In this document: piece after piece, positions 4,806 to 56,645 of the stretch
Layout: every line of letters starts with the position of its first letter
Numbering within the stretch: the stretch's first letter is position 1
Position numbers and translations under genes: made by a program
Notes under the pieces: generated by a model
Databases searched by the model: none
Told to the model about the DNA's origin: nothing
Seen by the model: only the letters and a program-made list of their open reading frames with translations
NCBI GenBank assembly: GCA_958510825.1
Contig: OY294047.1
Location: 51,567,365 to 51,631,364 of the forward strand
Direction: 5' to 3'
Length of the DNA stretch: 64,000 nucleotides
From: Brachypterus glaber
Lineage: Eukaryota > Arthropoda > Insecta > Coleoptera > Kateretidae

Positions 4806-5456
4806 TGTTGTGCCAGCCAGCCAAGTCTAATGATTTCGGACGAAGCCTTCGATATCCTCAATATATATTACAAAAAAAGTATTGAAAAAAATATAAAAAA
4901 TTACTAATTTTTAGAAACACTCGTCTAATAAAATAATAATTTAAATAATTTTAAAAATAGATAAAACATTGGTTTCTGAGTTCCCGTTCCTTGAATCCTT
5001 ATAAAAAAAAGCCCAGGTAAACATATTTTCATTATATTTTTATTAAAAAATAGATATTCTGAATGCGTATTCTTTCACAGGAGTCGAAAAATATTCCACT
5101 CATTTCTATGAAAAAGGTCCTTTTTGGTAAAAAATTTCCAATTCAAACTAGCGTACACACTAGAAAGTTTTTCTTTCAACGTGTACAATATTGTATCTCT
5201 TATCCTAAGGGGTTATATTTTTTAAGAAAGAAAATCCCCAAAATGTATTCGAAGTTTTCCATTACATAAAATGAAAAATAAACTTGCTTTTGTTAGAAGA
5301 AAAATGTAAAAGTTTATTTTTAGAAAAGTTATGTGGTCATGAAAAGGTATATGTATTTCTTTAGAAATAAATGCATGAAGATGATAATATTTAAAGTTTC
5401 ATACAAAGTACGTACTTTATTTTTAAATTTTAGATTATTAGAATATTTTTTTATAA

Positions 5457-5811
5457 TTTATTATTCTATCGATCTATTTTCTAATCATCGTACAGAGTGA
5501 TATTGGTAGACTGACAGTTTCGGGCTGCTGGCCCTCTTCAGTACCAAGAGTCAACTCTGCACGCTGATTAAGAAAACGTTTTTAGACTTTATTCGCAAAA
5601 GGAATATGGTCATTAGATTGATGTAGACTTGTGCGCCATTTATTGCTAAATGTAGACAACTACTCATACCTCTCCTAGTCTGGAGCCTTTGGATGGTAGC
5701 AAGTTAAAGACTTGTGTGTCTCAAGCACATAGTACCACTAACGTATGGTTAGGCGTAGGTTAATTAATATTTTTATAATTTTGTTTAAAATTAAAAATTT
5801 CTGTCCTTATT
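5457..5811 (-). mobile_element. Hammerhead-bearing repeat, copy A
   Basis: A repeat of about 355 bp. The left arm (5457-5575) carries a hammerhead ribozyme on the minus strand. A unique body follows (5576-5762), then an AT-rich tail (5763-5811) ending TTTCTGTCCTTA that is shared by copies B (50739-51115) and C (56153-56645). Unlike B and C it lacks the second inverted ribozyme arm. No reverse transcriptase frame is present. By architecture it may be a short derivative of a Penelope-like element or a retrozyme-like unit. Confidence 0.7.
5489..5563 (-). ncRNA. Type I hammerhead ribozyme, intact core (copy A)
   Basis: Read on the minus strand from 5563: outer stem I CGTGCAGAGT, loop TGACTC, inner stem I TTGGTA (5547-5542), core CTGAAGA (5541-5535), stem II GGGC / loop CAGCA / GCCC (5534-5522), core GAA (5521-5519), stem III ACT / loop GTC / AGT, cleavage-site C17 (5509), inner stem I TACCAA (5508-5503), loop TATC, outer stem I ACTCTGTACG. 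The inner stem I helix is 6 bp and the outer one 10 bp with one G-U. All core positions match the hammerhead consensus (CUGANGA..GAAA, A15.1-U16.1, H17=C). The short stem III, and the stem I internal loop facing loop II, are as in natural type I hammerheads of Penelope-like elements. Predicted self-cleavage is 3' of C17. Confidence 0.8.
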
Positions 5812-6470
5812 TTTTTATAAATTATTCTATACTGTAACAAGAGTATATTGATTTAAATTTTTTTTACAGTATTTTAGAAGGTAATTTTTAATTTTATACA
5901 AAAAAATGTAGTATTACTATACATTTTAAAGTAAATATACGTTTTTGGAGTAATTTTACCATTTTAAGTGTTTTTTTTTTCGTATCTAATGTAATGTACA
6001 ATATATACAACAATTACATTAGCTATATGGTATAATCACATTAAATAATAAAATATTAACAATATTTACATAAAACGAGAAAATTGACCATACCCTAAAT
6101 GGGTCCGAAACGTCTCACCTAGTGTAGTTCTTTTAGATGAAATGATCCAAAATCTTTAAACAAGTCTCTTTAGTTTTAAAATTCAGGCGCCAGAGAGTAA
6201 AATTTACCTCCTTTTCCTTTTCCTTTTCCCTCTTTGGAGAGTTTCTACATTCTCCCTTGTACCACCGGCTCATTTACTTCTTTACTAGGAGGAATGTACC
6301 CTACACCCTATTTTGCATTTTTGGTGGAAACATACAAGGGAAAAATATGGTTTCCATCTAAAATTTTAAGATACTAGGTACAATTTTAATATAAAGATAT
6401 TTAATTTTATACTAGCTTAAACTTTTTATAATAATCATATTAACAATTATTATTATTGGGAAGGGAGTAG
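5812..6470. other. AT-rich stretch without a gene
   Basis: Nothing coding was seen. At about 6210-6300 there is a pyrimidine-rich then moderately GC-rich patch (ccttttccttttcc). It has no match elsewhere in the window. Confidence 0.4.
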
Positions 6471-12778: not shown

Positions 12779-13660
12779 ATAATAATAATAATAATAATTT
12801 ATTAAATCCGTAAGAGATTATACAATCTATGGATACGTCACAAATTAGGAATAAAAATATATAAATAATATGTACTACATGTCACAAACACATTAAAATC
12901 ATTTGTTTACAATAATTAATTAATTAATTGGGTAAGCCCAGGAAATTATTTTCCCTAACTTCATCATAGTACTCTTCCAGTGTATAAAAGGGGTTATTTA
13001 AGAAGAAAGCCTTAATTTTGTTTTTAAAGGTGTTAAAATTTGTTATTTCCCTAATGAAGGGTGGAAGGTGGTTGTAAACCTCCATCCCCCTGTATCGCGC
13101 CCCTTTTTCGTAGGTTACTGTCCTATGTCTTGGTGTGGATATAGCATTATTATGTCTTGTTGATATACCTTGATTTAGTTCTCTATTTATAATAAACTGT
13201 TCATTATTTTTCTTTACAAAAAGACACAATCTATAAATATAAAGAGAATAAACTGACATTACACAGCAACGCTTAAATAGGGGTTTGCAATGCGCATCAA
13301 ACTTTTCAAAACAGATCGTCCTCAGGATCTTTTTTTGAAGTGTTAAAAGCCTTTCAGTCTCTGATGAACCCCCCCAAAATATAATTGAGTAATTTAAGCG
13401 GCTTTGGACAAAAGCATTATAAAACAGTAAAATAGAATCAAGACTAACCGTGTTTCTTAAGTTCAATATTGCATAGTTTGCTCAACAAATTTTTTTAGCA
13501 ATTACATCTATATTTTATGCCCACGATGTACAGTTCCCCGCAAGGTGGGTACCCAAAAATAAAACTTCTTCACTCTGATGGATACTTTTACCATCCATCC
13601 TTACCAGTAAGCTGGAGGAAAGCTGGTTGGTTAGCTTGTAGTGTACTAATTTGGTTTTTG
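12779..13660 (-). mobile_element. 5'-truncated non-LTR retrotransposon in W
   Basis: Minus-strand LINE 3' part. It holds the C-terminal coding region (12924 to about 13655), a 3' UTR of about 120 bp, and an (ATT)n tail at 12779-12800. Its insertion interrupts repeat W, so it is younger than this W copy. Its coding part is of the same type as, but clearly diverged from, the ORF at 36456-38780. Confidence 0.8.
12924..13655 (-). pseudogene. Reverse transcriptase C-terminal fragment
   Basis: The open part (12924-13466, 180 codons) reads FWGGSSETERLLTLQKKILR, then HCKPLFKRCCVMSVYSLYIY. It aligns by eye with residues 625-760 of the intact polymerase (WGGSSHAERLLIIQKRSVR, HCKPLFVKHEIMTV). Upstream to about 13655 the frame continues as DGKSIHQSEEVLFLGTHLAG, broken by a stop after TSWA. 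The catalytic fingers and palm are missing, so it cannot be active. Confidence 0.8.
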
Positions 13661-18610: not shown

Positions 18611-19345
18611 CCAAGTACGAAAAACTTTTCACTATTTCGTCATATATTTTTTAATTAAATATTAAGTAAAGATTTGATAAAATATAATGTCGATAAAGCC
18701 TTTCAGATTCTTAACGTTTTATTAAATCATGCCAGTCTAATAATTAGGCATACCAGCAAGATAATGAAGTATCAGGAAACTCCTGAGACAAAGTTCTTGT
18801 TTGATTAATTCCAAATCATTGTTCGGAGCCATGTAACTAAAATATAAGTAATGTTTTGCTTCAGGGTATCAATAAGGGACTAGAAATTAAGTAATTTAAA
18901 CTTAAAAGGATCACATCGACGAATTAAAGTTCAAAACTTTGTAATACTCTACTGTCTTCACACGTAATCTTTTAAATAAGACAAAGAACTTTTCAAACTA
19001 TTGAATAGAAAGATGGTAAGCTTTGAAGTTTATTTAGTAGTCCAGGCACTGGGTAGGTTCGGACTTGCAAAAGGTCAAGGAGAGTTCTAATTTGGTAGAT
19101 TTGAATAGTTTATTTATATTCCGAGTTTTCGACAGTCAGCGACCGCCTCTTGCGCCGCCATATTGAAAAAATGGTACCCAGAACCAGTTTTTCGAGAATA
19201 TCTTCTCTCCAGCACTGCCTTGGTTAAAAATAGCTATTACAAAAATAGCGAAAGCCCCCCTTTATGAATTCAGTGCCTGGCCTATTGGGCTCTCCATGAC
19301 GCTGTAATTTATAAATCCCTCTATAATATAAAATAGTTTTTTTAT
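18611..19345. other. No gene seen
   Basis: AT-rich with a slightly GC-richer block at 19040-19210. No motif was recognised apart from the far end of the ORF described next. Confidence 0.4.
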
Positions 19346-19580
19346 CTGTCAACAATAGTTTTTCCTCTGTCAACAATAGTTTTTCCTCTGTCAACAATAG
19401 TTTTTCCTCTGTCAACAATAGTTTTTCCTCTGTCAACAATAGTTTTTCCTCCGTCAACAAAAGTTTTCCTTTGTCAGCAATAGTTTTTTCTCTGTCAACA
19501 ATAGTTTTTCCTCTGTCAACAATAGTTTTTCCTCTGTCAACTTTAAGTACTCCCTGCTCGCCAGGCTCAATAAATTTCAA
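19224..19580 (-). CDS. 118-codon ORF built on a 7-residue repeat
   Basis: About two thirds of the product is heptad-like tandem repeats, first VDRGKTI (x2) and VDREKTI, then LLLTEEK repeated about six times. They are encoded by the 21-bp minisatellite at 19346-19541. One 20-bp unit shifts the reading frame of the repeat without creating a stop, which explains the two peptide versions. The ends (MKFIEPGEQGVLK and YRGIYKLQRHGEPNRPGTEF) do not suggest a domain. It could be a chance ORF across a minisatellite whose unit is a multiple of three, or a repetitive secreted or structural protein. I favour chance. Confidence 0.25.
   Translation of the reverse strand: MKFIEPGEQGVLKVDRGKTIVDRGKTIVDREKTIADKGKLLLTEEKLLLTEEKLLLTEEKLLLTEEKLLLTEEKLLLTDKKTILYYRGIYKLQRHGEPNRPGTEFIKGGFRYFCNSYF
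19346..19541. repeat. 21-bp minisatellite, about 10 units
   Basis: Tandem CTGTCAACAATAGTTTTTCCT. Most units are identical, two are diverged, and one unit is 20 bp. A single inverted unit (GTTGACAGAGGAAAAAACT) lies at about 19599-19617. Confidence 0.9.
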
Positions 19581-19615
19581 AGTGACGTTTAATTAAAGTT
19601 GACAGAGGAAAAAAC

Positions 19616-22889: not shown

Positions 22890-23464
22890 TAGTAGTAGTA
22901 GTAGTAGTAGTAAATTTTTGGGTTGGCCAAAGCCGGACAACTAGGCCATTTCTGGCCCTTTTTGTCACCCCAGGCAATCGCAGCCATTTACTGAGTCCTC
23001 CTTGAACCTACCCGTCCTTTCAATAAAGGTCAGGATATTGGCCCAGGGGAGATGTCTTAGTTCCTCTTGGTTGAGTCTTTAAGTTTCAAAGACTTGCAAC
23101 CTGATCCTGTCGTATCTGACACACTCGGCTAAGTAATGAGAGGATGTTTCATCTTCTCTGCACTCTGGGCATAGCGGACTCTCTAGAATCCGCATTGTGG
23201 CCAGGTACTTTCTTAACTTGCAGTGGCCCGTAAAGACCCCTACAAGTTGTCTGAGTGCAGTTCTTCCTTTTTCCAGAAACCAGTTGGTCTTTGATTTGCT
23301 TGGGCCAGCCAGGAAGTCCCTAGCTTGCCCGCAACCGTCGACCGCCCTACATTGCTCCTTTAGCTTGGCATAAGCTCACTCATCGAGAGCGGTCTTTACC
23401 TGCTTTTTTGTAAAACCCAATATAGGTTCCGGCCCCGTGCAGGCCATCCCTGATCCGAGTCTTG
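22890..23464 (-). mobile_element. LINE 3' fragment with (CTA)n tail, copy 1
   Basis: A minus-strand 3' portion of an RNase H-bearing non-LTR retrotransposon, about 85-90% similar by eye to 47587-48262. It ends in (TAG)n on the plus strand at 22891-22911. Its 5' end is cut at CGAGTCTT. It is flanked by an 11-bp target duplication with one mismatch: ACGACAATACA at 22879-22889 and ACGACAATTCA at 23465-23475. The coding region is broken by frameshifts. Confidence 0.85.
22990..23460 (-). pseudogene. RNase H / C-terminal LINE pseudogene
   Basis: Residues matching the better copy can be followed on the minus strand. They include the GMACTGPEPILGFTKKQVKT-type stretch (23400-23450), the Cys-rich segment RILESPLCPECREDETSSHY and the end ILTFIERTGRF. 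No continuous frame exists. The complete CPEC of this copy suggests that the other copy has a small deletion there. Confidence 0.7.
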
Positions 23465-36290: not shown

Positions 36291-38815
36291 TATTTATTTC
36301 CACAGACTTTTACAAGTATCGGATATTGTCAAAATTCAATAATTAATATTAAAAAAAAAAAAAACATATATAAATATAATATAAAATGCATAAGTAACTA
36401 CCTGATATGTTACAAGAGACTGTGACATACATATAAGACTTAATAAAAAAAGATATTATGAACACTGGTAATTTTGAAAATTAAATTGAAAGAATTCGTT
36501 AGTGTTATAAAAAGGATTACTAAGAAAAAATAATTTTAGCTTACTTTTTAATTGAGACATAGTTCCTTCCTTGAGACAAACAGGTAATTTATTTAAAAGC
36601 TTTATCCCCATGAAGATCGGTCCTTTTTCATAAAAAACTAGTCTATGTTGAGGAATTGAGATATCAGTTGCATGTCTAGTTACAGGACCCTCGGAGATTT
36701 CAGAGTTTGATATAAAAAGATCCTTATTACTCAATGCATATAATGCTAAATTAAAAAGGTACAAGGCTGTTACGGTCATTATTTCGTGCTTTACAAATAA
36801 AGGTTTACAGTGGTCTCTATACTCTGCGCCCGATATCAACCTTACCGACCTCTTCTGAATGATAAGCAACCTTTCTGCATGACTGGACCCTCCCCACAAT
36901 ACAATCCCGTATTGTAAATGTGCTTTTACATTAGCATTATAAAATATTTTTAACGTGGCTAAATCCACATTTTTTTTTAAATTTATCAAAGCATAGTTAC
37001 AGCTTTTCATTTTATTTACAACCAGATTAATATGTGTCGACCATGAGAGAGTAGAGTCCAAGGTCACTCCTAATAACTTAAAGGAGTTTAGCACTGGGAT
37101 GGTTTTATTAGAGCACTTTGCTAAAATACTCTGATTTCTAGTTTTAGTAGAAAACTGCACAATAGCTGATTTGCTAGGGTTTAATATAAGAAAATTTAGG
37201 CGGCACCATTCTTCCATTGCATTAATTAGCGATTGAATTAAGTTATGATCATGTCTACATACTATTGAAGTATCATCAGCATATTGCAGAAGAAAGAAAA
37301 ATCTTGGATCAGCATTATTACATAGATACTCTAACAAATCATTGCTAAAAATTAAAAATAGTAATGGAGAAAGTATTCCCCCTTGAGGTGTGCCCCTTTT
37401 AACCCTTAGGTACTCTGATTTATATTTTAAATGTTCATCTACTAATTCTACATATTGTTCTCTGTTTTCTAGGTATGATTTTATCCATTCTAGCGGAGGC
37501 CCTATTATACCATATGACTCTAGTTTAGCGATTAGAATTTTATAATCTATAACATCAAAAGCAGCTGTAAGATCAAAAAATATGGCTGTTGTTAAACTTT
37601 TTTTATCAATGCAGTCTATAATATAAGAGATTACCTTAAATAGGGCTTTTGTTGTACTATATCCAGTTCTGAAACCATAATGAGATTTTGATAATAGTAA
37701 ATATTTTTTAAAATACTCTGTGATTCTATTTAGCATTATTTTATCTATTATTTTAGCAAAAAATGAGAGATTTGAAATTTGACGATAGTTTCCCAATGAT
37801 TCTTTGTCTCCCTTTTTGTGGAGGGGGATTACCCTAGCTTTTTTAAGAACCGATGGATATGTACCATTCGCGAAGGATGCATTAATTATGTTTACCAAGG
37901 GATGTGCAATGTACTGAGCCACAGACTTTACAATTACCCCTGGTATTTCATCGGGACCCACAGACCACTTATTTGGGAAGGATTTAATGGTATTTATTAC
38001 CTCTTGTTCATCAGTGGGTCGTAAAAACATATTATTTGCATTTATATTTTTTCTTTCGAAAGAAATATTATGTGGTGGCGCATTCGCCATAAGTGATTCT
38101 GCGTGGTTTACAAAATGTTTGTTAAAGGTGGTGGCGACTTTTTCAGGATCACTTACTTTTTGGTTATTTATAGTTAAAATTGGAATTTTACTTTTAGGTC
38201 TATTTTTTATAGTATTATTTATTACATTCCATGTGTTTTTGATAATGTTATCATTTTTTAAAATATGCTTTTTATTATAAAGTTTTTTTGCTTTTTTTAT
38301 TTCAACATTATATTGTTTTTGTAATGTTTTATATTCCGTTTTAGCATTATTGTTACCTGTAACATTTGCAGCCCAATGCAGATCTTTTAATTGTTGAGAT
38401 TTTTGTATTAATTCAGGTGTTAGCCAGTTATTTTTATTAAGAGTAACTTTTTTATTTTTTATTGGGAAACTTTCGTCAAAAGTATTTTTAAAAATATTAA
38501 AAAATTCAGAGTATTTTTCGTCCACTGTTTCTAGATTGGCTACAGTACCCCAATTAGCCTCCTGCATCATTTGAGTAAAATTTGATTTATTTAAGTCTGA
38601 ATAATCTCTACTTGTTTTTGAAATTTGTGCACATTTATTAAGTTTATTATTTCTTACCTTGATCTTCACTCCCATATGGTCGGAAAATTCAACTAAACAG
38701 GTGTTTGTGGCAATAACCTCCTTATAATTAGTAAAAATATTGTCTAAAAGTGTCTTTTTATGTGTAGGGGAGTGTAGCATACTTGGTGCATATAATATTT
38801 TTTCTACTACCTAAA
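36261..38815 (-). mobile_element. Non-LTR retrotransposon, 5' truncated, intact RT
   Basis: A minus-strand element of about 2.55 kb. It contains the end of the endonuclease, a complete reverse transcriptase and C-terminal region (36456-38780), a 3' UTR of about 160 bp with AATAAA just before the end, and a (TATCT)n tail (plus-strand AGATA x6 at 36261-36290). The ORF has no stop or frameshift, so the insertion is young or has been kept. The 5' end is lost inside the endonuclease; ORF1 is absent. Confidence 0.9.
36456..38780 (-). CDS. Endonuclease remnant + reverse transcriptase (LINE ORF2)
   Basis: 774 codons from the first Met; the frame stays open for ten more codons upstream to 38810, so this Met is internal. 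Residues 5-40 are the end of an apurinic-type endonuclease (PTHKKTLLDNIFTN, then SDH with catalytic His35). The reverse transcriptase covers about 310-580: motif A FFDLTAAFD (401-409, catalytic D403), motif B RGTPQGGILSP (462-472), and motif C YADD (500-503). All three catalytic Asp residues are present. The C-terminal part has WGGSSHAERLLIIQKR (629-644) and HCKPLF (657-662), as in Jockey/CR1-group elements without RNase H. Without most of the endonuclease this copy could not insert by itself. The exact clade is not decided here. Confidence 0.92.
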   Translation of the reverse strand: MLHSPTHKKTLLDNIFTNYKEVIATNTCLVEFSDHMGVKIKVRNNKLNKCAQISKTSRDYSDLNKSNFTQMMQEANWGTVANLETVDEKYSEFFNIFKNTFDESFPIKNKKVTLNKNNWLTPELIQKSQQLKDLHWAANVTGNNNAKTEYKTLQKQYNVEIKKAKKLYNKKHILKNDNIIKNTWNVINNTIKNRPKSKIPILTINNQKVSDPEKVATTFNKHFVNHAESLMANAPPHNISFERKNINANNMFLRPTDEQEVINTIKSFPNKWSVGPDEIPGVIVKSVAQYIAHPLVNIINASFANGTYPSVLKKARVIPLHKKGDKESLGNYRQISNLSFFAKIIDKIMLNRITEYFKKYLLLSKSHYGFRTGYSTTKALFKVISYIIDCIDKKSLTTAIFFDLTAAFDVIDYKILIAKLESYGIIGPPLEWIKSYLENREQYVELVDEHLKYKSEYLRVKRGTPQGGILSPLLFLIFSNDLLEYLCNNADPRFFFLLQYADDTSIVCRHDHNLIQSLINAMEEWCRLNFLILNPSKSAIVQFSTKTRNQSILAKCSNKTIPVLNSFKLLGVTLDSTLSWSTHINLVVNKMKSCNYALINLKKNVDLATLKIFYNANVKAHLQYGIVLWGGSSHAERLLIIQKRSVRLISGAEYRDHCKPLFVKHEIMTVTALYLFNLALYALSNKDLFISNSEISEGPVTRHATDISIPQHRLVFYEKGPIFMGIKLLNKLPVCLKEGTMSQLKSKLKLFFLSNPFYNTNEFFQFNFQNYQCS

Positions 38816-47586: not shown

Positions 47587-48265
47587 GTAGTAGTAGTAGT
47601 AAATTTTTGGGTTGGCCAAAGCCGGACAACTAGGCCATTTCTGGCCCTTTTTGTCGCCCCAGGCAATCGCAGCCATTTACTAATTTGAGTCCTCCTTGAA
47701 CCTGCCCGTCCTTTCAATAAAGGTCAGGATATTGGCCCAGGGGAAATCTCTTAGTTCCTCTTGGTTGAGTCTTTGAGTTTCAAAGACTTGCAACCTGATC
47801 CTGTCGTATCTGACGCACTCGGCTAAGTAATGAGAGGATGTTTCATCCTCTGGGCATAGCGGACTCTCTAGAATCCGCATTGTTGCCAGGTGCTTCCTTA
47901 GCCTGCAGTGGCCCGTGAGGACCCCTACAAGTTGTCTGAGTGCAGTTCTTCCTTTTTCCAGCAACCAGTCGGTCTTTGATTTGCTTGGGCCAGCCAGGAA
48001 GTCCCTAGCTTGCCGGCAACCGTCGACCGCCCTCCATTGCTCCTTTAGCTTGGTATAAGCCCACTCGTCGAGAGCGGTCTACCTGCTTTCTTGTAACCCC
48101 CAATATAGGTTCCGGCCCCGTGCAGGCCATTCCTGATCCGAGTCTTGCAAGTTCATCTGCCTTCTCGTTTCCGGGAATTCCACTATGACCCGGTACCCAT
48201 ACCAGTTGAACGTATGGGTACCGGGTCATAGTGGAATTCCCAGAAACGAGAAGGCAGATGAATAA
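47587..48265 (-). mobile_element. LINE 3' fragment with (CTA)n tail, copy 2
   Basis: Inserted in MITE R and flanked by TAATTCGCCTTA (47575-47586) and TAATCCGCCTTA (48266-48277), a 12-bp target duplication with one mismatch. The 3' tail is (TAG)n on plus at 47587-47600. At the 5' end the last ~51 bp of the element are repeated in inverted orientation (48152-48202 against 48212-48262), a foldback at the 5' junction. Confidence 0.88.
47680..48229 (-). pseudogene. RNase H domain and C-terminus of LINE ORF2
   Basis: The upstream frame (48005-48229) gives YPYVQLVWVPGHSGIPGNEK, then ADELARLGSG. This is the end of an RNase HI domain with the GHSGxxGNExAD signature and its active-site Asp. The downstream frame (47680-47964) gives LTGHCRLRKHLATMRILESP, then DETSSHYLAECVRYDR, the Cys/His tail typical of I/R1/Jockey-type elements. 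The two frames are joined by frameshifts. The first Met lies in the inverted duplicate and is not original. Confidence 0.85.
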
Positions 48266-50080: not shown

Positions 50081-50738
50081 CACCTCTTGTATATTTACTC
50101 TATGCTATTATCCAATGGAAAACTCCCCGCTTCGCGGCTTGTGTTCCAAACATGGACGCGTGCGCCAAAATAGTATCTTATGTAACTTGTCCTTTTTATA
50201 ATATTAAAACATGCAATTCTACTTTTAAATCTGTGGAGAGTGTAAAAAAGAGAAGTAGGAAGATAGACTACCAAAATACGTTTTACGATCGAGCGACATG
50301 TGACAAATTCACACTAGCCAGACAGTGAGGAAAGGTGACGATTACACGCTGTTTTTCATTTGTCAGCAATCCGAACTACTGAATGCCCTTTGAATAAAAC
50401 CAAATCGTAAAAAAAACACAAAAATACAGTAATAGGATTTTATCCAAATAAACTTTTAAACGTCAATTTTTTTTGCATTTATTTGCCACTCACCACTAAA
50501 TGTTAGTAACAGCAAGTTTATACTCAATTTTTATTTATTTATTTATTTGACAAAATATTAACAAAGGCATGAGAGCTGTAAAAAATTCTAAACGCGACAA
50601 AAAATTAAACAAAAGCAATAAAGTTGTCTCAACCTGAAAACTGAAAAATAGTAAAAGATTTCGCAACTATTTTTCTGGTAACTGCAACTATACTTCTGTA
50701 ATAGGGCAACCAATTATTTAATTAAAGTTACAAATATG
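50081..50738. other. No gene seen
   Basis: Contains CCCCGCTTCGCGGCTTG at about 50130, another GC-rich palindromic apex like those of the foldback families, but its arms are not clear. Confidence 0.4.
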
Positions 50739-50773
50739 TAATTTATTATTCCATCGATCTATTTTCTAATCAT

Positions 50774-50848
50774 CGTACAGAGTGATATTGGTAGACTGAT
50801 AGTTTCGGGCTGCTGGCCCTCTTCAGTACCAAGACTCAACTCTGCACG
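50774..50848 (-). ncRNA. Type I hammerhead ribozyme, intact core (copy B left)
   Basis: The same fold as at 5489-5563. Differences are outside the core: the stem III loop is ATC instead of GTC, and the stem I internal loop is TGAGTC instead of TGACTC. CTGAAGA, GGGC/GCCC, GAA, ACT/AGT and C17 (plus position 50794) are kept. Changes confined to loops are what would be expected if the fold had been under selection before insertion. Confidence 0.8.
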
Positions 50849-50962
50849 CTGATTAAGAAGTAGTAGTTGTCTACATCTAGCAATAGATGGCGCACAAGTC
50901 TACATCAATCTAATGACTATATTCCTTTTGCGAATAAAGTCTAAAAACGTTTTCTTAATCAG

Positions 50963-51035
50963 CGTGCAGAGTTGACTCTTGGTACTGAGAAGGCCAGCAG
51001 CCCGAAACGGTCAGTCTACCAATATCACTCGTACG
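50963..51035 (+). ncRNA. Degenerate hammerhead (copy B right)
   Basis: TTGGTA and TACCAA still pair, but the core reads CTGAGAAGGCC instead of CTGAAGAGGGCC, stem III has ACG against AGT, and two bases of the outer stem are lost. Predicted inactive. Confidence 0.75.
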
Positions 51036-51115
51036 ATGATTAGAAAATAGGTTGATGGAATAATAAATTAATATTTTTATAATTTTGTTTAAAATTAAAA
51101 ATTTCTGTCCTTAAC

Positions 51116-51345
51116 AAATATGTAGTTAAGGTACAAAGGTTATGCCATATTATTATTTTATTGTTGAGGCTGGATTTTTTTCCGTGTATTATTAATAATA
51201 AGTTATATCCAGTTTTATAAGATTTTGGTTTGGACTTTTTCAAATTGATTATAATAACATTTTATCTGCTCTTTTTAAATCTTAGTCAGAAGTTTTAAAT
51301 TTTTTTCTATGTTACATATGTAGTACCTAAATAAATAACTTTTAA
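51116..51345. other. AT-rich stretch
   Basis: Nothing recognised before the reverse transcriptase relic that follows. Confidence 0.4.
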
Positions 51346-54965: not shown

Positions 54966-56152
54966 TCAGTGTGGGATTATATCGTTAGATCTCAAAAAGA
55001 AGGAATATTTTAAAGTCGAGTGAGCTCGTTTCCAATTTTTCATTCTCGGTTCGGTAATAACGGTAATAATAAGTTAATAAAAACTTTTTTAATAATGTCT
55101 TGTTCGCGAATTTTACGGAGAACTGAAAAGCTAACAAAGTGAATTTTATTCCAATGTGTACCTAGTTTTATATAGAAAATGAATATTTTATATTCCTGTA
55201 AATTCTTTTACAAATTGAGTTTGTTTTCTTTGCAGAGGTACAGTAGCGTCCATGTATCAAGTAATAATATTATATACTATAATAATCTATTTATCCACGG
55301 CCGTGATTAATAGGCTTATTAATCACGGGTCTGTAAAAAGAAAGCGTTTAAAATTTAAAATGACGGTGGATAAAGTATAGAATTCTACTCGCGTGTAATA
55401 GCTATTAAGCATTCGAGTAATTAGGCAACTCGCCTGTCGGCTCGTGTCATTGAATAATATACTATTATCTATTTAATCCTGCAAAAACTCTAATTTTAGC
55501 TATTTTCGACTACTTGATTATTTTCATATAAGCTTGATCTCTTAGGGGGAAGGGGACGGTCATTCTTAATTTAATATTGGCCATATACCGGGAATACAAT
55601 AATTTTCAAATAACTCGAAAACGGTTAATGTTAGATATAGGGTATTCATTTTAAAGAAAATTTGATTCTCTATTTTACTAAATAAAAAAAGTAAAGGGTG
55701 CCATTAAAAAAAAAATAAGTTATGGCTATTTTTAAATTTGTTAGATTTGACCTGCTTCCTGAGACACCCTGTATACATTTTGGGCTCTGTTTCGGCTTAG
55801 GATAATTCGGTTAAGTATTATTGAGTAAACCACAAAACAACTTTTCTCCAATTTAAAAAATCAAGGAGAAATTAATTTTTTTAGGGGTGCTTGAATTTGC
55901 TAGTTTTTCGCTAAAAACTTTATTAAAAATAAAAAAAATATATGAGTTGTTTCATTTAAAAAATCAAAGTTGAGTGCCACTTCCGGTACAAGCATAAAAA
56001 TATTTTTAATTCATTGGCCATATTCAAAAACCCCAAAGTGCAAAATATCAGATTTTTTAAATTATTGTTTCTCCATAAACTTTTAATAGGCCACTTCCGT
56101 GAATAACCTTGTATAAAACAGTATGCGATAGGCCAAAACTACTTTTCTTTTT
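54966..56152. other. No gene; hairpin at 55300-55460 and a CAGGGTG-type end at 55765
   Basis: At 55305-55335 GTGATTAATAGGCTTATTAATCAC is a palindrome. At 55430-55480 CAACTCGCCTGTCGGCTCGTG leads to AATAATATACTATTA, again the foldback-type end. At 55758-55776 GAGACACCCTGTATAC is the mirror of a CAGGGTGTCTC transposon end, but the partner is not found. Confidence 0.4.
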
Positions 56153-56160
56153 GTGATCAT

Positions 56161-56235
56161 CGTACAGAGTGATATTGGTAGACTGACAGTTTCGGGCTGC
56201 TGACCCTCTTCAGTACCAAGAGTCAACTCTGCACG
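56161..56235 (-). ncRNA. Type I hammerhead ribozyme, intact core (copy C left)
   Basis: As at 5489-5563, but with GGGT in stem II pairing GCCC through one G-U wobble. Core CTGAAGA, GAA, ACT/AGT and C17 (plus position 56181) are all kept. Confidence 0.8.
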
Positions 56236-56490
56236 CTGATTAAGAAAACGGTTTTATATTTTTTTATAATTTTGTTTAAAATCAAAAATTTCTGTCCTTA
56301 ATAATTCTACGCCTAACCACTCGTTAGTGGTACTACACACAAGTCTTCAACTTGTTACCATTCAAAGTCTCCAGACTAGGAGAGGTATGAGTAGTTGTCT
56401 ACATCTAGCAATAGATGGCGCACAAGTCTATATCAATCTAATGGCTATATTCCTTTTGCGAATAAAGTCCAAAACCGTTTTCTTAATCAG

Positions 56491-56565
56491 CGTGCAGAGT
56501 TGACTCTTGGTACTGAAGAGGGCCAGCAGCCCGATACTGTCAGTCTACCAATATCACTCTGTACG
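56491..56565 (+). ncRNA. Hammerhead with one core substitution (copy C right)
   Basis: All helices are perfect (GGGC/GCCC, ACT/AGT, TTGGTA/TACCAA, outer 10 bp). The invariant GAA reads GAT at 56533-56535, so cleavage is predicted to be lost or very weak. Confidence 0.8.
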
Positions 56566-56645
56566 ATGATTAGAAAATAGATTGATGGAATAATAAATTA
56601 ATATTTTTATAATTTTGTTTAAAATTAAAAATTTCTGTCCTTAGT

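Follow-up and report, generated by a model that had tools for sequence, protein, structure and literature searches.

A Hammerhead Repeat of the Retrozyme Kind in the Beetle Brachypterus glaber and Its Penelope-Type Insertion Scars

We describe a 354-bp repeat of Brachypterus glaber. We consider it likely to be a non-autonomous retroelement, of the same kind as non-LTR retrozymes, and to be produced by Penelope-like machinery that copies a self-cleaved, probably circular RNA. By its sequence anatomy the repeat is a non-LTR retrozyme, for which circular RNA expression is a prediction only. It is not itself an autonomous Penelope-like element, because it has no long frame and no ORF with reverse transcriptase (RT) and GIY-YIG domains. 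The insertion scar left by its copies is the new part of these results; a link between retrozymes and Penelope-like elements has already been proposed in print.

Three Hammerhead Motifs in Copies of One Repeat

The window (the whole 64-kb stretch of DNA analysed here) carries three copies of the repeat, A (5454-5809), B (50739-51113) and C (56149-56643), which consist of the following parts:

5489-5563, minus strand: intact hammerhead of copy A, found by descriptor
5454-5761, minus strand: inverted arm of copy A (hammerhead module and body)
5762-5809, plus strand: tail module of copy A, 48 bp, on the strand opposite to the arm
5444-5456, no strand: left direct flanking repeat of copy A, TATTTTTTTATAA, target-site duplication, with a few ambiguous bases shared with the end of the element
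5808-5820, no strand: right direct flanking repeat of copy A
50739-50860, minus strand: inverted arm of copy B, with an intact hammerhead at 50774-50848
50861-51113, plus strand: direct arm of copy B, with a body fragment, a broken hammerhead at about 50963-51035 and the tail at 51066-51113
50730-50740, no strand: left direct flanking repeat of copy B, ACAAATATGTA
51114-51124, no strand: right direct flanking repeat of copy B, ACAAATATGTA
56149-56257, minus strand: inverted arm of copy C, outer end shortened, with an intact hammerhead at 56161-56235
56258-56643, plus strand: direct arm of copy C, with tail 56258-56303, body 56304-56468, hammerhead at about 56491-56565 and tail 56596-56643

In copies B and C a further ribozyme, broken and oppositely oriented, is present; in that of copy C (at about 56491-56565), GAA is changed to GAT. 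The direct arm of copy C is a partial tandem with a 343-bp period.

The initial annotation had reported a complete type I hammerhead with named parts, and all of these are readable on the minus strand of 5489-5563 (75 nt). The outer stem I of copy A, CGTGCAGAGT/ACTCTGTACG, comprises 10 bp including one G-T and is followed inwards, across a 6x4 internal loop, by the inner stem I, TTGGTA/TACCAA. The core contains CTGAAGA, stem II GGGC(CAGCA)GCCC (4 bp and a 5-nt loop) and GAA. Stem III, ACT(GTC)AGT, is formed by 3 bp closed by three bases and is followed by C17 at window position 5509; the predicted cleavage site lies between 5509 and 5508. Apart from one T-T, the sequence of stem III, ACTGTCAGT, is self-complementary. 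Pairing of stem III ACUGUCAGU from one copy with that of another is possible, so that the ribozyme may act as a monomer or as a dimer.

The window was searched with a descriptor of type I hammerheads with a short stem III (CTGANGA; stem II with 4 bp or more; GAA; stem III with 3 bp or more, closed by A-U; H17; stem I with 5 bp or more). Exactly three intact motifs were retrieved, at 5503-5547, 50788-50832 and 56175-56219, all on the minus strand, against no match in 150 simulated windows (first-order Markov, dinucleotide frequencies, both strands). All three sit in copies of one repeat; they are homologues and were therefore counted as one origin. CUGANGA and GAA cores, an A-U pair closing stem III and H17 are present in each of the three window copies, as expected of a type I hammerhead. 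The three helices, with stem I open, are captured by the descriptor; the minimum-energy fold differs. Judged from the sequence, the hammerhead motif at 5489-5563 is confirmed as real.

Distribution and Structure of the Repeat in the Genome

The repeat context proposed for the motif was borne out by the three window copies and by many more copies genome-wide. The host genome (648 Mb, 842 contigs) contains 2,800 matches (1,433 + 1,367) to the ribozyme core pattern, which has 35 places, three of them degenerate; the reversed 35-place pattern produced no matches in the same genome. A 281-base query containing the body retrieved at least 73 genome matches, from 40 scored of 869 first-look candidates. 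The 37 non-window loci studied below are the best-scoring places for this body-containing query and not a random sample. The relaxed descriptor detected at least one motif in 35 of these 37 loci and no motif in L036 and L044.

The unit consists of the body, the hammerhead and a tail of ca. 44-48 nt, in this order, and has a length of 354 bp and a GC content of 0.367. Units occur singly, as dimers and trimers, or in tandem arrays (L010, L011, L014 and others); the array at L010 contains ten 354-bp units. At L011:1579-6286, thirteen tail-less units, mostly with a 316-bp period and the first of them partial, are followed by two units with the tail. The tail-less units are ca. 38 nt below 354, and the L011 array looks like a satellite-like offshoot of the repeat family. 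Read through for three laps, one unit yields a longest open frame of 65 codons, which indicates no protein coding and agrees with the earlier remark that the host element has no polymerase. When a natural 354-nt unit was folded as a circle, the energy was -92.4 compared to -66.1 (sd 5.7) for 60 shuffles (z -4.6).

After 28 partial matches had been set aside, 101 full-length ribozymes were available from the 37 loci and the window. CTGANGA and GAAA are kept in 96 of them, and 31, counting copy A, share the exact sequence of copy A.

Searches of two sequence collections that hold viruses, bacteria and archaea revealed no tail or body pattern in viral_contigs and no match to the patterns in genome_contigs; the ribozyme pattern was found in one unrelated viral contig of viral_contigs. 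Given the content of these collections, the outcome tells little about relatives of the repeat elsewhere. This hammerhead-like sequence is located at L001:4319-4361 (minus strand), among the tRNA genes of a long tRNA array in the 137-kb viral contig IMGVR_UViG_3300032315_000774, and no hammerhead family was matched by it in Rfam at E<=1.

Rfam Searches, Folding and Covariation

The whole window had no match in Rfam at the gathering threshold, and no hammerhead was retrieved at E<=10 in a search with 251 bases. In a permissive search of 81 bases, the sole match was RF03152, RAGATH-1-hammerhead (17.3 bits, E 0.47), whose alignment covers every core part in place; RF00163 was not matched by the motif in the searches of the window and its excerpts. 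A significant Rfam covariance score had been put forward as a check of the motif, and this check formally failed, the best score of 17.3 bits standing against a gathering threshold of 56.3. The Rfam score gauges similarity to described families. We did not take the miss as a refutation, because RF03152 aligned all core parts and the descriptor gave no chance matches.

The minimum-energy fold of copy A (z -4.57) is not a hammerhead, since ACUGA is paired with UCAGU; the hammerhead fold lies 8.1 kcal/mol above the minimum, before any core or tertiary energy. Covariation was counted in 41 distinct copies of 75 nt, with three distinct copies of other length left out. Changed pairs were kept in 9 cases and broken in 31, with 0 two-sided changes, among copies that are very alike. 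Since changed pairs are mostly broken and never doubly changed, the copies look neutral after insertion. It thus follows from their neutral decay that the within-family comparison neither supports nor refutes the helices.

One may ask whether the motif is catalytically dead, a relic that is carried along with the repeat. The competing ACUGA/UCAGU pairing, the stem III of 3 bp, the lack of an Rfam score over the cut-off and the lack of covariation would fit such a relic. We consider it unlikely, however, given that 96 of the 101 copies retain both CTGANGA and GAAA and that stem III ACUGUCAGU can form between two copies, as described for dimeric hammerheads (PMC6155905).

Insertion Scars with One Tail and Flanking Repeats

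Insertion scars were analyzed in 42 clusters, drawn from the 37 loci and the three window copies; 26 of them are insertions whose arms run both ways. All but one of the 26 (25 insertions) have a tailed outer end and an untailed one. The tailed end is located at unit position 344-354 (at L016 it was read by hand, the script having listed an overlapping AT-rich match), and the untailed end is located at the tail start, at 307-335, with positions over-extended in some rows by the AT-rich flank. The exception is copy C, with its outer end at 289. The inner joint of the arms is variable in position; an overlap of 2-4 bases between the arms was seen in 11 of the 26 insertions, a raw count without chance control.

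Direct flanking repeats of at least 9 bp were found in 24 of the 26 inverted-arm insertions, compared to 8.3% of 1,332 mismatched flank pairs. The 24 repeats have a median length of 12 bp (range 9-18 bp) and an AT content of 0.877; no flanking repeat of at least 9 bp was found at L015 and none at copy C. Once 11 direct-only copies were added, such repeats were present in 26 of 37 insertions. This test used 37 of the 42 clusters and left out L012 (twice), L019:343-687, L037 and L038.

A fresh sample consisted of twelve further loci picked by the ribozyme core alone. One tailed end, one untailed end and a flanking repeat of at least 9 bp were present together in six of its eight inverted-arm insertions, or in six of nine if the messy cluster L081:1301-1426, which was set aside, is counted. 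Under the strict range of 307-335, the number is five of eight, with the untailed end of L084 located at 297. The two failures are L079 and L087. The copies thus show the marks of Penelope-type insertion, i.e., inverted arms, a tail at one outer end and short AT-rich target-site duplications.

Inversions, truncated copies and flanking repeats also arise with LINE mobilisation, and the scars share these features with a SINE-like element moved by a LINE, whose 5' inversions would be due to twin priming. A LINE-type RT ORF is present in the window at 36459-38810 (minus strand), which would suit such an origin. Twin priming, however, should leave the inverted outer end variable, whereas 25 of the 26 insertions have it at one fixed place, the tail start. 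In addition, no A/B box was found by a simple pattern in the one unit tested, and in the window the tail matches solely copies A-C at E<=1e-3. We dropped LINE twin priming on account of the fixed outer end of the inverted part and regard a LINE-moved origin as very improbable.

Copies B and C, considered alone, resemble inverted repeats, and B has flanking duplications; they had suggested a MITE or foldback DNA transposon with terminal inverted repeats that contain the hammerhead by chance. Arm lengths, however, vary between copies, the tail is present at one end only, so that the two ends differ, the flanking repeats range in length from 9 to 18 bp, and tandem units occur inside the arms. The genome copies contradict this origin, which is hardly credible, and the candidate was rejected.

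Several other features were seen in the window. The frame at 36459-38810 (minus strand) has 784 codons and a reverse transcriptase domain (PF00078, 3.5e-33) and is LINE-type by look; 12927-13481 (minus strand) resembles, by eye, the C-terminal part of a relative. A short tandem repeat at 19224-19592 has frames open on both strands (LLTEEK and SVNNSFS repeats). Frames at 23082-23375 and 47683-48078, both on the minus strand, are alike by eye (ARDFLAGPSKSKT...) and may be what is left of a further repeated element with coding sequence.

Penelope-like Elements in the Same Genome

The GIY-YIG domain (PF01541) has at least 31 genome matches, from 150 scored of 419 first-look candidates; further Penelope families may be present beyond those scored. 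RT and GIY-YIG domains are found in one ORF at L072 and L057, and also at L067, where RT is below the Pfam cut-off. A PDB sequence search with a Penelope-like ORF gave no match. Out of 30 fetched PF01541 loci, 28 fall into three Penelope groups, with L047 and L050 left unassigned. Twelve loci of the three groups show an inverted pair, and in 11 of them exactly one of the nearest pair is tailed; L049, the exception, is without a tail. The flanks of 11 of the 12 have 11-18 bases in common (8 at L058), these being raw lengths without chance control. Since the scar of the retrozyme follows the same one-tail rule as these neighbouring Penelope-like elements, the repeat appears to insert by their rule.

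A TGANGA hairpin followed by CGAAAC is located behind the GIY-YIG domain in 27 of the 30 loci. Minimal hammerheads are known in Penelope-like elements (PMC7229834, PMC7761336), and the motif agrees with those published. Across loci L047-L076, three or more Penelope-like groups can be distinguished. Every group has a tail of its own as well as a minimal hammerhead-like motif, and several loci have an inverted copy upstream.

In the 30 GIY-YIG loci, none of the three Penelope groups shares the tail words of the 354-bp unit. Comparison of the unit with these loci revealed short matches only, most of them in AT-rich tail sequence. The best one, L050:325-361 (plus strand), has 37 bp, 84% identity and E 3e-5 and corresponds to the 3' half of the ribozyme; a truncated GIY-YIG fragment of Penelope-like type precedes it by ca. 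900 bp. This match is most likely an old copy or fragment. Only a faint resemblance can be seen between GAAACTAGTC of the first Penelope group and GAAACTGTCAGTC of the 354-bp unit.

Discussion

The anatomy of the repeat can be compared with several described systems. Animal non-LTR retrozymes, which have insects among their hosts, are described as non-coding tandem repeats of 170-400 bp with a type I hammerhead, a GC content below 45% and many copies (Cervera and de la Pena 2020, PMC7229834), and the 354-bp repeat is like them in hammerhead type, unit size, GC content and lack of coding. In that description their mobiliser is merely proposed, whereas the Brachypterus repeat has inverted arms, a one-sided tail and flanking repeats that point to one. 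Penelope-like elements or LINEs have been suggested for this role (PMC7229834, PMC7761336), Penelope-like mobilisation also in PMC11722881, and no conserved retrozyme motif is said to point to a mobiliser (PMC7761336).

In animal Penelope elements, the pLTR is also present in inverted form, one member of the inverted pair may carry a tail of 31 bp, and the target-site duplication measures 8-10 bp (PMC3846280). With the Anolis PAc protein, both strands of the target are cut and extended, and reverse transcription begins at two neighbouring internal positions that delimit the tail (PMC11167929). With the Penelope-like elements of A. vaga (PMC3846280) and Anolis (PAc, PMC11167929), the 354-bp repeat shares inverted and direct repeats, partial tandems and a tail at one end, as well as short target-site duplications, AT-rich targets and a hammerhead in the repeat. 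Unlike them, it has neither RT nor GIY-YIG, and its full hammerhead, with a looped stem III and an internal loop in stem I, differs from the minimal Penelope-like variant. The suggestion made from the sequence that retrozymes or Penelope-like elements are the relatives to look at is in accord with the unit size, the arrays and the insertion scars.

Hammerheads are also present in the SINE- or satellite-like repeats pDo500 of Dolichopoda (PMC2837043) and Schistosoma W elements (PMC8490949), which we compared by description; the two-arm, one-tail scar was not found in these descriptions. Scar evidence that links retrozymes to Penelope-like elements was not found in the parts of the open-access literature searched, where the link is proposed only.

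One can envisage the following course of mobilisation. Tandem units would be transcribed to a multimeric RNA, which the hammerheads would cut to 354-nt monomers, and these would probably be ligated into circles. A Penelope-like protein with RT and GIY-YIG nuclease, presumably from one of the families acting in this genome, would bind the RNA. Its nuclease would cut both strands of an AT-rich target, ca. 12 bp apart, and each target 3' end would prime at one of two fixed RNA sites, the tail ends. The two cDNA arms would then be joined in head-to-head orientation, at a position that varies, and copying round a circle would produce tandem units. We see an even chance that the scars identify the mobiliser of animal retrozymes in this way, i.e., as a Penelope-like enzyme that acts on self-cleaved circular RNA with two priming sites ca. 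44 nt apart and generates head-to-head rolling-circle arms.

Likeness between same-strand units within a locus (median 0.983) exceeds that between units from different loci (median 0.9565), and does so in 24 of 30 loci taken singly; such values could also come from local amplification of DNA. Between the two arms of an insertion, likeness does not exceed that between units from different loci (12 of 23), and a single shared template molecule is therefore unsupported.

The same element and a Penelope-type mobiliser could also operate without circles, on a linear multimeric template, with the ribozyme merely trimming the transcripts; tandem arrays would then come from the linear multimer or from unequal crossing-over. 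We rate this course, including such an origin of the arrays, as a tentative alternative of appreciable though lesser probability. Hammerhead cleavage is dispensable for PAc insertion in vitro (Frangieh et al., PMC11167929), which agrees with it, and arrays of like units can also expand in DNA; L011 contains thirteen tail-less units. However, arms of one to several near-identical units are present at many separate insertions, each with its own flanking repeats, and unit size and GC content match those of retrozymes that produce circular RNA (PMC7229834), which argues for copying from a circle.

Animal retrozymes are known as abundant hammerhead circular RNAs, and the machinery that inserts them has so far been a matter of conjecture. 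Many copies of the Brachypterus repeat carry a countable clue to their mobiliser. If copying from a circular RNA by a Penelope-like enzyme is true, tandem arrays, inverted arms and the one-sided tail would be explained in one step, and the RNA, the two priming sites and the candidate enzymes, all in one genome, would provide a testable model.
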